Shown one piece after another: positions 19,961 to 24,935 of a stretch of DNA of 64,000 nucleotides. The notes under the pieces are model-generated. The model was not told the origin of the DNA. It did no database searches and saw only the letters and a list, made by a program, of their open reading frames with translations. The DNA is taken from positions 20,088,001 to 20,152,000 of the forward strand of contig OX485803.1 of NCBI GenBank assembly GCA_950295325.1, read 5' to 3'. The DNA is from Polytrichum commune. Taxonomy: Eukaryota; Streptophyta; Polytrichopsida; Polytrichales; Polytrichaceae. The translations under genes and the position numbers were made by a program. Position 1 is the stretch's first letter. The number at the start of each line of letters is the position of its first letter.

Positions 19961-22443
19961 GGTCAACATCCATTTGCATTGCATTACATGTTGTCCGCAA
20001 GTATATAGATTCAAAACAAAACCCAAACACTAAAGCAATATTAACACCAAAGGAATTCCAATCCACATATAAATATATACCTAAAACTATCAAAGATGCT
20101 CTCCAACAAGCCTCAACACTATTCCCACCCCCACCACCACCCACAAATCACCCATGCCCAACACAACAAACACCACCACAAGATGTGCACACACTAAACA
20201 TTCCCCACCCTCCTCCAAACACAATATTAGGACAAGCAATCCAATCCATAATAAAAGACAAAACCGACACCAAAAAAGACAAATGGAGTGCACATGCCAT
20301 CAAAAGGATGTACCTATGCCAATGGCAACTACCACAAGGAATCACACAACAATGGCGCACAGAAGAAGAACTACTACACCCGGATAACATACTACTAGAA
20401 CACAATATACTCCACATAACACAATACCACAAAAATCAAACGGAATTAAAAACAACCCAACAATATGCTAGTTGCCTCAACCACATCCAATCAAAAGACA
20501 ATAAATTTATACACCCCCCCCCCCCCTAAAAATTACCAACCTAAAACTAACCATACAAGAGTGTAACCCATATAAAGACATCCAAGTAAACCAACCAACC
20601 ATTCAAATACAAGACTCAGAAGCTAACATATACGACCAAAGAGGAAACTACATGGCCATCATTACTACCGAACGACTACATTGGCTTTGGAATCAATTCT
20701 CCCACATCCACTCCACACAATTAACAAACTCCCTCCAACCCCCATCCCAAAACTTTGAAACAAAAATACTTTGGCTCATACAAAGATACATAACCATACT
20801 TCCCAAGAGAAAGCCAAAAACCATACAACCCAATAACCTACACCACACAATACACCCAGCAATCACTAAGATACTAATTGAATCCTTTAAATCACACACT
20901 CATATTATTCTTCACCACTTACATGCCCCACACAACTCACGCAATATTACTCACTCCACAACCAGGATACAATATTTGGCTCCATAGGACACGCACAATC
21001 CTCCAAATGGAAAGGTATTGGTCTAGCACACCCTACGGACCACAACACAACCATAGAAGCCATCCATTGGGCCATAATGGCAGCCAAAGAGGACACAAAC
21101 AATGTCACCATCCTCATAATTAACCATAATGATTGGACAACACAACAAATCCCACTTACCACAAAAGGCGACATACACACCCTCGCAACCATCCCCCCAC
21201 ACACAATATAAGCCCACACCATAATGGCCAAAATGCTACCAAAATATAGAACCATCACTCACATCAATAATTTGTATACACAACCAAACCAACCCAACAA
21301 TGAACCTACAAACTCCACAAGAACTACCACAAGTACTCAAACAAATCACTAACACACACATTGACACCTTCCCCATCAACCCCACACCCCCAAACTACCA
21401 TATAAAATTCTCAACCACATGGAAATGTGCACCCATAAATAACACCCCCATCCCAAAAAACGTCCCCCCAATAGCTATGCCAACTAGATACTACCATCAA
21501 CCACCCCCCCCCCCCAAATATCACCCACAACAATGCATATATACAGATGGATCATTCATCCCCCCTTCTAAAAACTCCGAGGGCCAAATAGTAGGCAACA
21601 CTACAGGATCAGGAGTATATAGCCCCAACAAGAATACCAAAATATCAGAGAGATTACCAGGGTACCAAAACATCCTTAGAGCATAACTGAACGCTATACT
21701 CATCGCTATTAAAACCATACAAACCACACAAACTGACACGCACATATTCACATACAACTTTAACAACATATATCTAATCAACAACCACATACAACACCCA
21801 ACATCACAACACCACCACCCAGATAAACTCCTTATAGCAACCATAATACACCAAAATTACTAGACCCCACACTCAATACACATACATAAAGTAAGGGCCC
21901 ACAAGGGCATCGTAGGAAACGAAATAGCGGACGCACTAGCCAATGAAGGTACACTTCATGAAAAACCAACCGCCACACCTCACATGCACTTGGCCCACGC
22001 CTCACCCTACTAGCTAGCAAGTTGCCCATCCGCCACACACGATGGAGCAATTCGAGACTTACACTCGTTCGTAACAAAAGCACACAACAATCGGGCAGTA
22101 AGGGTAGCCCAAAATAATTTCACTTACGTAGATAAATGGCTCTCCAAAGACCAAATAAACAAGAAACTCTCCAACCACTTCTGGAAGAACAAAAACATAA
22201 CGGACGCCCAAATCACCCAAACCTTAAAATTCACATATGCCCAATACATGGGTAACCACAGAAAAAACATCTTTTGGCCACTCAAATTCCAAAACCCCAA
22301 TTGCGCACTATGCCACCGAAACGACAGGGACACTTGGCCCCACTTATTATCCACGTGTGAACACCCATATCTAAAAGGCTTAAGAATTGCTCGCCATAAT
22401 AAAGTAGTACACCTCATCACCCAAACACTACAAGCCAACAAAC

Positions 22444-22971
22444 CACGGGTAGATCACTCTAAGGCATTTTTGTGCACCACGTGCGGCTAGGGGTTTTTTG
22501 TTTTGGGGCTATTTACCTTCAAGGGCTGAATTAAAGCCTCCATATAATTCAAAAATGGCCCATTTGTTTGCACCGTTCCATTACTTATATTGTCCAAGTC
22601 ACTGCAATTTTTTGTACTCTATATTCCTTTTAAGTAATAAAAGCTAATCTACTTCCTAACGCAATTGACGAGTGTTGAGGGAAAGCATGGAAACAAAGAA
22701 GGGTGCAAACATCCCCGTGAGTCCTAAACCCATTTACATACCATACTAAACATACCTTCCAGGATCCTTATCTTCAGCCCCTATATTAATTTTACAAAAA
22801 AATAATGGCCCACGTTTTATGTCCATCTAACTTACTTATAATGGGATTGTCTACATTTAATGGCCCCTTCATCATTTGGAATTCCTTTATAATTTTTATT
22901 TCAAATGATTTTAATCCTCTCTATATTATGCCGCACGTCGTTTTTAAGATGCACTAAGTGATCTACCCGTG
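22444..22971. mobile_element. hAT-type MITE family E, copy 1 (528 bp)
   Basis: The ends are perfect inverted repeats CACGGGTAGATCACT / AGTGATCTACCCGTG, and the inner sequence ACGTGCGG also pairs. It is flanked by 8-bp duplications CAACAAAC (22436-22443) and TAACAAAC (22972-22979), which differ at one base. It sits inside the retrotransposon coding region; removing it and one duplication rejoins the zinc-knuckle part to the nuclease part in one frame. It has no transposase. Confidence 0.85.
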
Positions 22972-23272
22972 TAACAAACACACCCGATTCTACACACTAA
23001 CAAACGTAGGAAATCTCAACAATATGAATCAAGAACAAACCATCCCATAATGGCTCATAAAATGCACATGCACACAAACAAGGTGCCAATGCCAAGCCAA
23101 ATTAAGACCGGATATCCTATGCATACTAGGCACCCCAAACAACACACTCACGCCTTTATCACCATCACACTCACACACAATACAATTCATTGAATTCACA
23201 TATTGCCATGACAAATTCCCCGAACAAGCACTCATACACAAACACAACAAATACGACCCATTACTTAACAAC

Positions 23273-23682
23273 CACGGGTAGATCACTCCATTGTCAAGTT
23301 GAACACCACGTGCGACCAAAAAAAATCTTCTTTTGGTAAGTTGCACCACCAAAATGGGTCAAAATTTTATCAATTGTTTTTCATGAGTAGATATACACAG
23401 TACCTATGACATACTTAAAAGTGGTAACTAAATTTGATGATTTGTTTTTTTCATAAAACATATTGTCTCTAACTAGAATGACACAAAATTGAACTAAAAC
23501 AATTACTTAAAAAAATAAAGATGACTAAAAATTTCAAAAAAATATACAAAAGATACTATCAATGGTTATGTATATGTAGAAAAAATATCATAAATTTTAA
23601 AATTATATATGGCATGTAATATAGGGGTAGCAAACTTTGTCTGCACGTGGTGTCAACTTGACAATGAAGTGACCTCCCTGTG
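23273..23682. mobile_element. hAT-type MITE family E, copy 2 (410 bp)
   Basis: Left end CACGGGTAGATCACTCCATT, right end AATGAAGTGACCTCCCTGTG, with an inner pair TTGTCAAGTTG / CAACTTGACAA. The 8-bp flanks are TTAACAAC (23265-23272) and TTAATAAC (23683-23690), with one mismatch. It interrupts the retrotransposon nuclease between KYDPL and GWKTNP. Its interior matches copy 3 at 34.6 kb in inverse orientation. Confidence 0.87.
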
Positions 23683-24059
23683 TTAATAACATACAAAACC
23701 AAGGATGGAAAACGAACCCTCTAATCACTATTATAGCTGGTGTTCGTGGAGCCATACACAAACAATCCATCGTCAAACTTCCTGACCTTAAAATCCCAAA
23801 AACCAACATAAAAACCCTCATGAAAAATTTACACCAAAACGCCATTAAATATCTCACCTACCTAGCCCTCGACAAAAGAAAACTAGAAAATAAACAAGCT
23901 ACTATCACACCCCCTTAAACAAAGCGGACTGAAACGTAATACCAGAGCCCACCTCCCAAGGAGGCATAAAACCTCATACTACAACACGGTCCGCTGTGTT
24001 AAGTATTTGGATAACGGGCTCACATTCATGCCGGTACCATGTACGGGTGTTATTTTTTC

Positions 24060-24935
24060 TTTTCAAAACAATACTAAAGTTGTTGATTTTGGATCAATTT
24101 GCTAACAAAGTTTATGAGTGGGTAGGGAGAAGTAGCAATCGACGGAGGGAGCTCAAAAGCTCAATGACTGAATATGATTTACAACCATTGGTTGTCTTGC
24201 GATTTCATTTAGTTCGTTGGCTTTCTCAAGGTCAAGTGTTGGAGCGGATTTTATGTTGTATGCTAGCAATATTGGATGCTTTCTAAGTGGAGGATGCCTA
24301 TTGATACCACCAAGCTACAACCTTCCAGTTTTAATTAATGCTTGATCTCGTGGTGGATGTGTTGGCAAAGCTAAATAACCTGAAACAAAAATTTCAACAT
24401 GACTTGGTTGATGTTTCAACGATTGGATCCACTTTGGATTCATCAAATTCTATTTTGAAGAGACCTTTTTAATGTGGTCAAAGACCCAATTATGGATGAT
24501 CAACCAAGAAGTTCAATCCAATTTTGTCTCGAGCTTGGGTGGATGTTGTGTTAAAATAAAGGGCAATTGATGATGTTGAAGGCACATATCAACCTATGCA
24601 TCACAGATAAATTTTTTATCGGGAGAACACACTAGAAGAATGCAAGACGATGGGAGTTATGTATGTGCAAGCAATTATGGACAACTTGAATGAAAGGTTT
24701 CCTAATTTACATGTTATCAGCGCATCAAAGAAATTCAATCTAAAGCATTCTCCAAGTGATGGAGAAGTTCATATGACTATGTCAGAGCAATGGTTGGAGA
24801 GATTGATCATAATAGGCATCAATAGGCATCCTCCACTTGGAAATCACATATGTCAATCCAAGTGGAGGATGCCTTTTGATACCACATGTACATTATATGA
24901 ATCTAGAATTAATTATGCCTTTAGTACATGTTAAA
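24060..24935 (+). pseudogene. hAT (ZNF862-like) transposase relic
   Basis: Fragments in order: FANKVYEWVGRSS, VVLRFHLVRWLSQGQVLERI (24180-24255) and, after stops, MYVQAIMDNLNERFPNLHVI and SEQWLERL (24660-24800). The RWLS-GQV-ER block is the signature of the ZNF862/hAT-derived proteins widespread in plants. The last block parallels the segment at 61.5-61.8 kb (YIQKVIDSLNDRFPNLPI ... EQWLNRL). In-frame stops and missing C-terminal dimerisation sequence mark it as a relic. Confidence 0.7.
24825..24885. repeat. short inverted repeat (GCATCCTCCACTTGGA)
   Basis: GCATCCTCCACTTGGA and its complement TCCAAGTGGAGGATGC flank a loop of about 20 bases; a third partial copy (AAGTGGAGGATGCCTATTGA) lies at 24287-24306. 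The arms bracket the end of the hAT relic. Confidence 0.6.

Follow-up and report, generated by a model that had tools for sequence, protein, structure and literature searches.

A decayed non-LTR retrotransposon copy in the moss Polytrichum commune and its intact relatives, probable dual-endonuclease LINEs with a PCIF1/CAPAM-like domain

A stretch of 64,000 nucleotides of the moss Polytrichum commune (contig OX485803.1 of assembly GCA_950295325.1, positions 20,088,001 to 20,152,000; hereafter the window) contains, between about 20 and 24 kb, the remains of a retrotransposon, and the question raised by this locus is what kind of element left them. A sequence-only reading had placed there, at 19970-23995, an R2-type element combining RNase H with a restriction-like endonuclease, which would read continuously once two miniature inverted-repeat transposable elements (MITEs) were removed. 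What the window holds is a dead and decayed copy, truncated at its 5′ end, of a moss retrotransposon of the type without long terminal repeats (non-LTR); the complete element is large and was active recently. Judging from the motifs and the domain order of its intact relatives, the element is most likely a dual-endonuclease long interspersed nuclear element (LINE) of the Dualen/RandI plan, with a 2A-like motif, an apurinic/apyrimidinic (AP)-type endonuclease (APE), a reverse transcriptase (RT), RNase H, a zinc knuckle and a restriction-like endonuclease, to which a PCIF1/CAPAM-like domain is added. The latter domain, the 2A-like motif and a structured 3′ RNA lay beyond the reach of the first reading.

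Intact relatives and their protein domains

The genome searched comprises 407.8 Mb in 64 contigs. A 143-residue query taken from 22014-22442 of the window led to 3,480 rough candidates, of which 150 places were scored, the window and 149 others with 72-85% identity; four of the scored places fall in frames that stay open for over 2,000 codons. Two families were read: family A, which is window-like (L001-L004), and family B (L005-L009, with L006 lying within L008), whose ORF2 proteins have 42-43% identity with that of L002. A pair of family A copies from separate contigs shows 98.9% identity over 10.4 kb and 99.2% over another 1.6 kb, which puts the length of the full element at about 11.9 kb. 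Among 118 RT places scored of 2,041 candidates, family B copies reach 98-99% identity with L009, one of them in a 2,663-codon frame; such near-identical copies indicate that the element has been active recently. A genome-wide count of an exact core string from the family A 3′ end gave 368 matches, 180 of them forward and 188 reverse, as against 0 for the reversed pattern. No relatives were confirmed among viral contigs, which were searched with profiles of the C-terminus, the PCIF1-like domain and the RT.

In the intact copies a long ORF1 is followed by the 2A-like motif, the AP-type endonuclease, the RT, the PCIF1-like domain, RNase H, the knuckle and the C-terminus; the order of motifs after RNase H is a C-x2-C..H..C knuckle, a C-x-C..C-x-C cluster and R/K-P-D..I-E-F..K..K-Y. 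The stop-to-stop frame of ORF1 has 1,302-1,310 residues in three of six loci and 1,558 in the L009 locus, and is broken in the other two. Its C-terminal part of about 500 residues (WLGF...RPDxxxGxHxxxTQxP...) is kept between families (L033, L034, L036 and L037); this conserved region matched no Pfam family over the cut-off, and a PDB search at E<=1 returned nothing. Upstream of the APE, a 2A-like GD[IV]xxNPGP motif, matching the 2A consensus D-[IV]-x-x-N-P-G-P, is present in all six loci extended 5 kb upstream and lies in the main ORF2 frame in four of them, where it may act in ribosome skipping. In one subfamily two such motifs, CGDIQPNPGP and CGDIHPNPGP, stand in tandem (L002, near 753 and 1189; L004/L035), in separate frames in one copy and in a single common frame in the other.

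All three family A proteins match over the Pfam cut-off RVT_1 (2.6e-26 to 1.4e-32), RNase_H (1.7e-14 to 1.5e-16) and Exo_endo_phos_2 (PF14529, 2.3e-7 to 9.7e-9). Both family B proteins match RVT_1 and RNase_H, and one of the two Exo_endo_phos (PF03372) over the cut-off; L009 has no APE profile match, but the APE catalytic residues still align there. RNase H (PF00075) is found in the five intact proteins, at 1.5e-16 to 3.3e-12. Invariant in these five copies are the catalytic residues of the APE (N, E, D, N, D, D and H), the three aspartates of the RT and the D-E-D-H-D set of RNase H. An N-terminal APE and an RT, which the sequence-only reading had proposed to look for and on the second of which its case hinged, are both present in natural copies.

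The eight Cys/His ligands and, at the C-terminus, the residues P, D, E, K, K and Y are invariant in five of five copies, and the PD/E/K/K/Y set is unchanged between families that are only 41-44% identical across the C-terminal region; the nuclease call made for it earlier is plausible, and the C-terminus is predicted from these motifs to fold and cut as a PD-(D/E)XK nuclease. The ratio of nonsynonymous to synonymous substitutions (dN/dS, Nei-Gojobori method, four within-family pairs) is 0.06-0.12 for the knuckle and C-terminus, 0.11-0.17 for the APE, 0.06-0.17 for RNase H and 0.07-0.21 for the PCIF1-like region; RT values, saturated in four of five pairs, were not used. These are signs of purifying selection on the domains of the element, and since both endonucleases are kept under apparent selection, both are argued to be in use.

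Several observations weigh against the dual-endonuclease reading. The synonymous rate is above 1 in all but one value, the ratios being rough, and the single between-family pair gives a higher dN/dS, of 0.32-0.36. No Pfam profile matches the C-terminus as a nuclease in the five members scanned, where the other matches are DUF2043 in two of five (best 6e-4) and RNA_binding once (0.15), and its sole structural hint is a sub-threshold match to the R2 zinc knuckle in PDB (E=0.78). L001 is without about 50 residues behind the YADD box. No protease family was found in Pfam scans of ORF1 (four proteins) and ORF2 (five proteins), and an OTU protease search of the genome gave four matches of eight candidates and no repeat family. 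Finally, the RT profile has R2 as its best match in PDB (9nl2, 1.4e-36), with LINE-1 from 1.5e-22, but the R2 chains in this search span 1.4e-36 to 3.2e-21; the weakest of them match no better than LINE-1, and therefore the RT alone does not decide the class.

This last result, together with the C-terminus unmatched by nuclease profiles, would also suit a plant LINE of the ordinary L1 type that has an RNase H and whose C-terminus binds zinc, is no nuclease and has its PD, E and K by coincidence; APE, RT and RNase H occur together in plant L1 as well (PMC4640811, PMC9033089). Such an origin is unlikely. The best R2 match of the RT exceeds LINE-1 by 14 orders of magnitude, and the invariance of the PD/E/K/K/Y set between the two diverged families is hard to square with coincidence. 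Moreover, the RNase H of plant L1 is described in PMC4640811 as archaeal-like with Arg at the fourth catalytic position, in a cluster without bootstrap support in the same paper, whereas this residue is His in five of five moss copies; the tails, which are pyrimidine or TATC repeats and not poly(A), are also at odds with L1. A filing under plant L1 was judged unlikely from the RNase H His, the tails and the PD..E..K C-terminus.

Between RT and RNase H, the PCIF1 family profile PF12237 is matched over the cut-off by both family B proteins (47.1 and 41.5 bits) and below it by the three full-length family A proteins (25.6-27.4 versus 31.1 bits). At E<=0.01 the profile matches 13 of 13 members, with a best value of 1.6e-13; ten of these loci had been chosen via PF12237 itself, and L001-L003 independently of it. 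A genome search with PF12237 produced 697 candidates; the 150 places scored among them all exceed the cut-off (best 1.1e-12), and many are part of long open frames. A PF12237 place lies 1.9-3.4 kb downstream on the same strand for at least 23 of the 40 best RT places, a lower bound, as the 40 best of 118 RT places were compared with 140 of the 150 best PF12237 places. A profile built from the 13 sequences matched in PDB only PCIF1 (6irx at 2.7e-4, 6irv at 0.019), and a six-sequence profile matched PCIF1 at E=0.094. The alignment pairs SSPxxC...FGSxG, and homology runs from a helical stretch via FGSxG to the position of NPPF; this catalytic motif is replaced by A-[FH]-P-[TPH]-[DN] in the five intact copies, and by HP[PHY] or FPT in the elements of the profile. 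The median dN/dS of the region in family B is 0.16, from the 28 of 91 pairs in the usable range of synonymous rates. No WW domain was detected, and no canonical host PCIF1 gene was seen among the PF12237 places, the top one being that of the elements at 55.6 bits, although an exon-split gene could escape such a search.

These data support the view that the domain is homologous to, and derived from, the PCIF1/CAPAM cap-adenosine methyltransferase; an active CAPAM is unsupported. It might instead be a scaffold, or a coincidence of composition, and no descendant of the methyltransferase, as the loss of NPPF, the family A scores under the Pfam cut-off and the modest E-value of the six-sequence profile would allow; a single-sequence PDB search overlapping the domain likewise found no PCIF1, only p63 and a prolyl isomerase (E 0.6-0.94). 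This is, however, quite improbable: family B scores lie above the cut-off, PF12237 is also matched by three members of family A whose discovery did not involve it, PCIF1 is the sole PDB molecule matched by profiles built without it, and the three reversed or shuffled controls searched, of four made, gave no PF12237 match (a chance match to AmoC, at 0.12, came from one of them). If descent from PCIF1/CAPAM is accepted, the replacement of NPPF makes methyl transfer unlikely, and the conservation of the region suggests that its fold is still used. With low confidence, the domain may bind, without catalysis, the capped 5′ end of the element's own mRNA. A wider proposal, possible though doubtful, is that a dual-endonuclease LINE lineage persisting in moss, abundant and recently active, recruited a CAPAM-derived cap-binding module, which, no longer catalytic, would read the m7G cap and first adenosine of its own RNA, and would link the RNA 5′ and 3′ ends in target-primed reverse transcription or enforce cis-preference.

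3′ ends, insertion sites and a possible mechanism

The 3′ untranslated regions (3′ UTRs) of family A share a fold. In an alignment of twenty sequences, which adds the window, L001, L002 and L003 to the fetched 3′ ends (L004 is not included; of the first 20 ends, L016, L017 and L024, which have no 3′ UTR start, and L021 were omitted), 31 pairs are formed with 97.9% of cells paired, and 12 of the 31 pairs show double changes; neither value was reached in any of 500 shuffles, though the structure was tested on the alignment from which it was derived, which favours it. Further pair types were reached by 40 of the 500 shuffles, a point on the other side. When the partner strand is slid, pairing falls to 31-42%. 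An Rfam search of six loci at E<=0.5 gave no match. A terminal ATTCAYGCCGG-hairpin-GTT module is common to families A and B, and the repeat tails differ, being of (CTTTT)n type in family A and (TATC)n in two family B copies.

Two observations on 3′ ends stand apart. On the opposite strand of the family B 3′ UTR (L008:8238-8700, L009:8372-8830) a tRNA-box-B-like string, GTTCGAT[TC]CCC, was recognized by eye; it resembles a built-in antisense SINE or tRNA-derived piece, and ARAGORN found no tRNA. Nested insertions or an inverted product may account for the arrangement at G000:C2:42404781-42404998, where the 3′ ends of two family A copies on opposite strands point towards one another with 15 bases between them.

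Target-site duplications (TSDs) were sought in 21 insertions, namely the window and 20 of 41 3′-end matches. Identical strings of 10-19 bases occur at both junctions in 16 of them; the remaining five (L044, L047, L048, L051 and L056) have no clear TSD and are kept in the denominator. The two near-identical full-length copies share only 7-base junction strings, which were discarded as TSDs; both this and the five insertions count against the main reading. With mismatched junctions (1,000 trials), strings of at least 10 bases arose in 10 trials, of at least 11 in two and of at least 12 in none. All 16 TSDs start with T and follow a genomic G (11) or A (5); this preference for a purine|TT step is weak, the leading T being common to the tail and the preceding purine partly forced by definition. 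The flanks at the 16 duplicated junctions are otherwise unrelated. The covarying 3′ RNA, the pyrimidine tails and the TSDs together indicate target-primed, non-site-specific insertion, and the pattern is what target-primed reverse transcription leaves behind when its sites are loosely chosen.

This result bears on the R2 type claimed for the element at the outset, in the form of an R2-group element with a restriction-like endonuclease only, inserting site-specifically and having acquired its RNase H. The C-terminal knuckle followed by the PD..E..K order, R2 as the best PDB match of the RT and the R2 knuckle as that of the C-terminus, the latter at the sub-threshold value given above, would be in its favour. 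Against it are an AP-type endonuclease with its catalytic residues fused upstream of the RT and insertions that are dispersed among unrelated flanks, with TSDs of 10-19 bp in 16 of 21, where site specificity had been put forward as a check. An R2-group origin is thus very improbable, and a filing as R2-type was ruled out by the presence of the APE and the lack of site specificity; what stands of the first reading is that a non-LTR retrotransposon of a plant combines RNase H with a PD..E..K C-terminus.

For the dual-endonuclease element, the most likely course of retrotransposition is as follows. The element protein would bind the RNA that encodes it at the folded 3′ end, and one endonuclease would nick the target beside a purine|TT step; the pyrimidine tail would then anneal to the A-rich nicked strand, and target-primed reverse transcription would follow, in which the RT copies the RNA and RNase H clears the template. 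A second cut would fall 10-19 bases from the first, and a frequent early stop of copying would lead to 5′ truncation. Either of the two cuts might be made by the APE and the other by the putative C-terminal endonuclease. If this reading is true, a high-copy, recently mobile moss family would make the division of labour between two kept endonucleases testable in a plant; furthermore, LINE proteins would have gained a new kind of recruited domain, one derived from a cap methyltransferase, and this would suggest that the RNA 5′ end is recognized or modified when the element moves.

The copy in the window and its two MITEs

The limits first given to the window copy were slightly off: the copy bounded by TSDs spans 20020-24061 and belongs to family A; its own parts, the MITEs and their flanks apart, lie on the forward strand. 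It is bracketed by a 10-bp duplication, TTCAAAACAA, present as a direct repeat at 20010-20019 (5′ TSD) and 24062-24071 (3′ TSD); among 5,000 random window pairs three had a string of this length in common, as did two of 5,000 shuffles. With the proteins of natural copies, tblastn aligned the segments 20017-20520, 20520-20888, 20891-21208, 21195-22442, 22973-23269 and 23676-23915, which correspond to residues ~1228-2209 of the 2,209-residue L003 ORF2 protein and are followed by the 3′ UTR; starting at residue ~1228, the copy is therefore 5′-truncated downstream of the RT. The continuous reading expected after removal of the MITEs did not hold, as compared with L003 there are three frame shifts (near 20515, 20890 and 21200) and five in-frame stops, four in 21195-22442 and one in 22973-23269.

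The copy opens with the linker 3′ of the RT in a first frame (20020-20520), which has 54-59% identity with L001-L003. The PCIF1/CAPAM-like domain and the stretch that follows occupy 20745-21208, with a frame change near 20890; the PF12237 match at L003 residues 1470-1555 projects onto ~20745-21001 via the tblastn alignment, and the piece 20891-21208 itself matches PF12237 at E=0.0049, under the curated cut-off. RNase H (YTDGS ... GNEIADALAN) lies at 21530-21950, its limits being set by eye on the alignment to intact copies; its catalytic E has become a stop codon and its second D a Y, and it went undetected in a Pfam scan of the window piece, although PF00075 matched the intact copies. The C-x2-C...H...C zinc knuckle (22296-22370, limits by eye), invariant in all five intact copies, stands upstream of the putative nuclease, whose first half, together with the second Cys cluster (RPDILCILG ... 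IEFTY ... KHNKYDPL), lies at 22973-23269 with one in-frame stop, and whose second half (GWKTNPLITI-AGVRG; 70-76% identity with L001-L003), at 23691-23918, runs to the stop codon. The RNase H, the knuckle and the PD...E...K order reported at first are thus all present. The structured 3′ UTR, a multibranch closed by GAGCCC/GGGCTC and a terminal hairpin (23945-24051), rests on covariation in the twenty-sequence alignment and is followed by the pyrimidine tail ATTTTTTCTT (24052-24061), comparable to the (CTTTT)n-type tails of other family A copies.

Both MITEs noticed in the sequence-only reading are borne out by terminal inverted repeats, 8-bp flanks and membership of high-copy families. MITE 1 (22444-22971, 528 bp) lies between CAACAAAC (22436-22443) and TAACAAAC (22972-22979), and its 15-bp terminal inverted repeats, CACGGGTAGATCACT, are perfect; MITE 2 (23273-23682, 410 bp) has 30-bp inverted arms that match at 87%, shares the terminal repeat CACGGGTAGATCACT at its 5′ end and is flanked by TTAACAAC (23265-23272) and TTAATAAC (23683-23690). 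Each pair of 8-bp flanks contains one mismatch, which suits hAT-type MITEs. For each, 40 places were scored, the window included: for MITE 1 of 1,633 rough candidates, the others being 92-96% identical at full or nearly full length, and for MITE 2 of 2,155, the others at 97%. Natural copies devoid of MITEs cross both sites without interruption, as TLQANKHTRFFTM in L002 and KYDPLINTIQNNGWK in L001 and L003; the junctions of the MITEs were therefore placed correctly.

Other features of the window and of the genome were also recorded. Just 3′ of the element, at 24277-24885, there are three copies of a 27-32-bp motif (AAGTGGAGGATGCCT .. TTGATACC), the central one inverted. The region 20000-22250 has an extreme strand bias, with a GC skew of about -0.4 to -0.6 and an AT skew of about +0.3 to +0.5; third codon positions in the five intact ORF2s (L001-L003, L008 and L009) have 38-47% A, 30-38% C and only 5-7% G. 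ARAGORN found no tRNA in the window and four loci. About 406 Mb of the genome are contained in seven contigs, which fits a haploid number of seven, and telomeric TTTAGGG arrays gave 619 forward and 662 reverse four-unit matches, one at the very start of contig C1. A contig of 146,561 bp carries two PsaA/PsaB genes, and the PDB entries nearest to the PsaB are 6l35, 8htu and 7ksq, structures of Physcomitrium photosystem I; on these grounds, too, the host is a moss.

Comparison with known elements

Dualen/RandI elements encode both an APE and a PD-(D/E)XK nuclease, and an RNase H has been reported in them (PMC4640811, PMC3636483); their hosts are Chlamydomonas and its relatives and cryptophytes (PMC8226300, PMC12747079), and the plant LINEs named in a 2022 review are L1 and RTE only (PMC9033089). 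Among the matches listed in searches of open-access literature, no Dualen from a moss and no retrotransposon with a PCIF1 domain was found; dual-endonuclease LINEs were found in print there for algae and cryptophytes only, and the apparent pairing of two endonucleases with a relative of an mRNA cap enzyme is unusual for a land plant. In PMC4640811, Dualen-type elements are used to argue that LINEs with an APE alone came about when the restriction-like endonuclease was replaced.

The moss element shares with Dualen/RandI the APE, the restriction-like endonuclease, putative here, the RT and RNase H; it differs in its land-plant host, the PCIF1-like domain, the 2A-like motif, the ORF1 of about 1,300 amino acids and the absence of a detected protease. 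A cysteine protease is said to have been described in Chlamydomonas Dualen in a 2005 study. It is not among the features by which Dualen/RandI are defined in PMC4640811 and PMC3636483. The likeness is most likely one of domain architecture, with no claim to proven membership, and the nuclease is predicted from motif and context.

With the R2 group (R2, R4, NeSL, HERO and CRE) the moss element has in common the zinc knuckle followed by PD..E..K at the C-terminus and the similarity of the RT; unlike that group, it has an APE and RNase H, lacks site specificity and is much longer. R2 also has a structured 3′ UTR, like that of the moss element. Plant L1 resembles it in APE, RT, RNase H, an ORF1 with an ORF2, target duplications and 5′ truncation, and differs from it in lacking a PD..E..K C-terminus, the RNase H His, a tail other than poly(A) and the PCIF1-like domain; the APE and RT layout with an (A)n tail is that of PMC9033089, and the RNase H that of PMC4640811.

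Compared with PCIF1/CAPAM itself, the moss domain has NPPF replaced, no detected WW domain and a place in a retrotransposon polyprotein. Methyltransferase-type domains inside retrotransposons have precedents in SymbioLINE-Dnmt, in DIRS elements with Dam-like or Dnmt3 domains and in KnitGypsy-Dnmt3, with purifying selection reported for the DNMT ones (PMC5890265); these are DNA cytosine or Dam-like adenine enzymes, in contrast to the degenerate relative of a cap-RNA adenosine enzyme found here.

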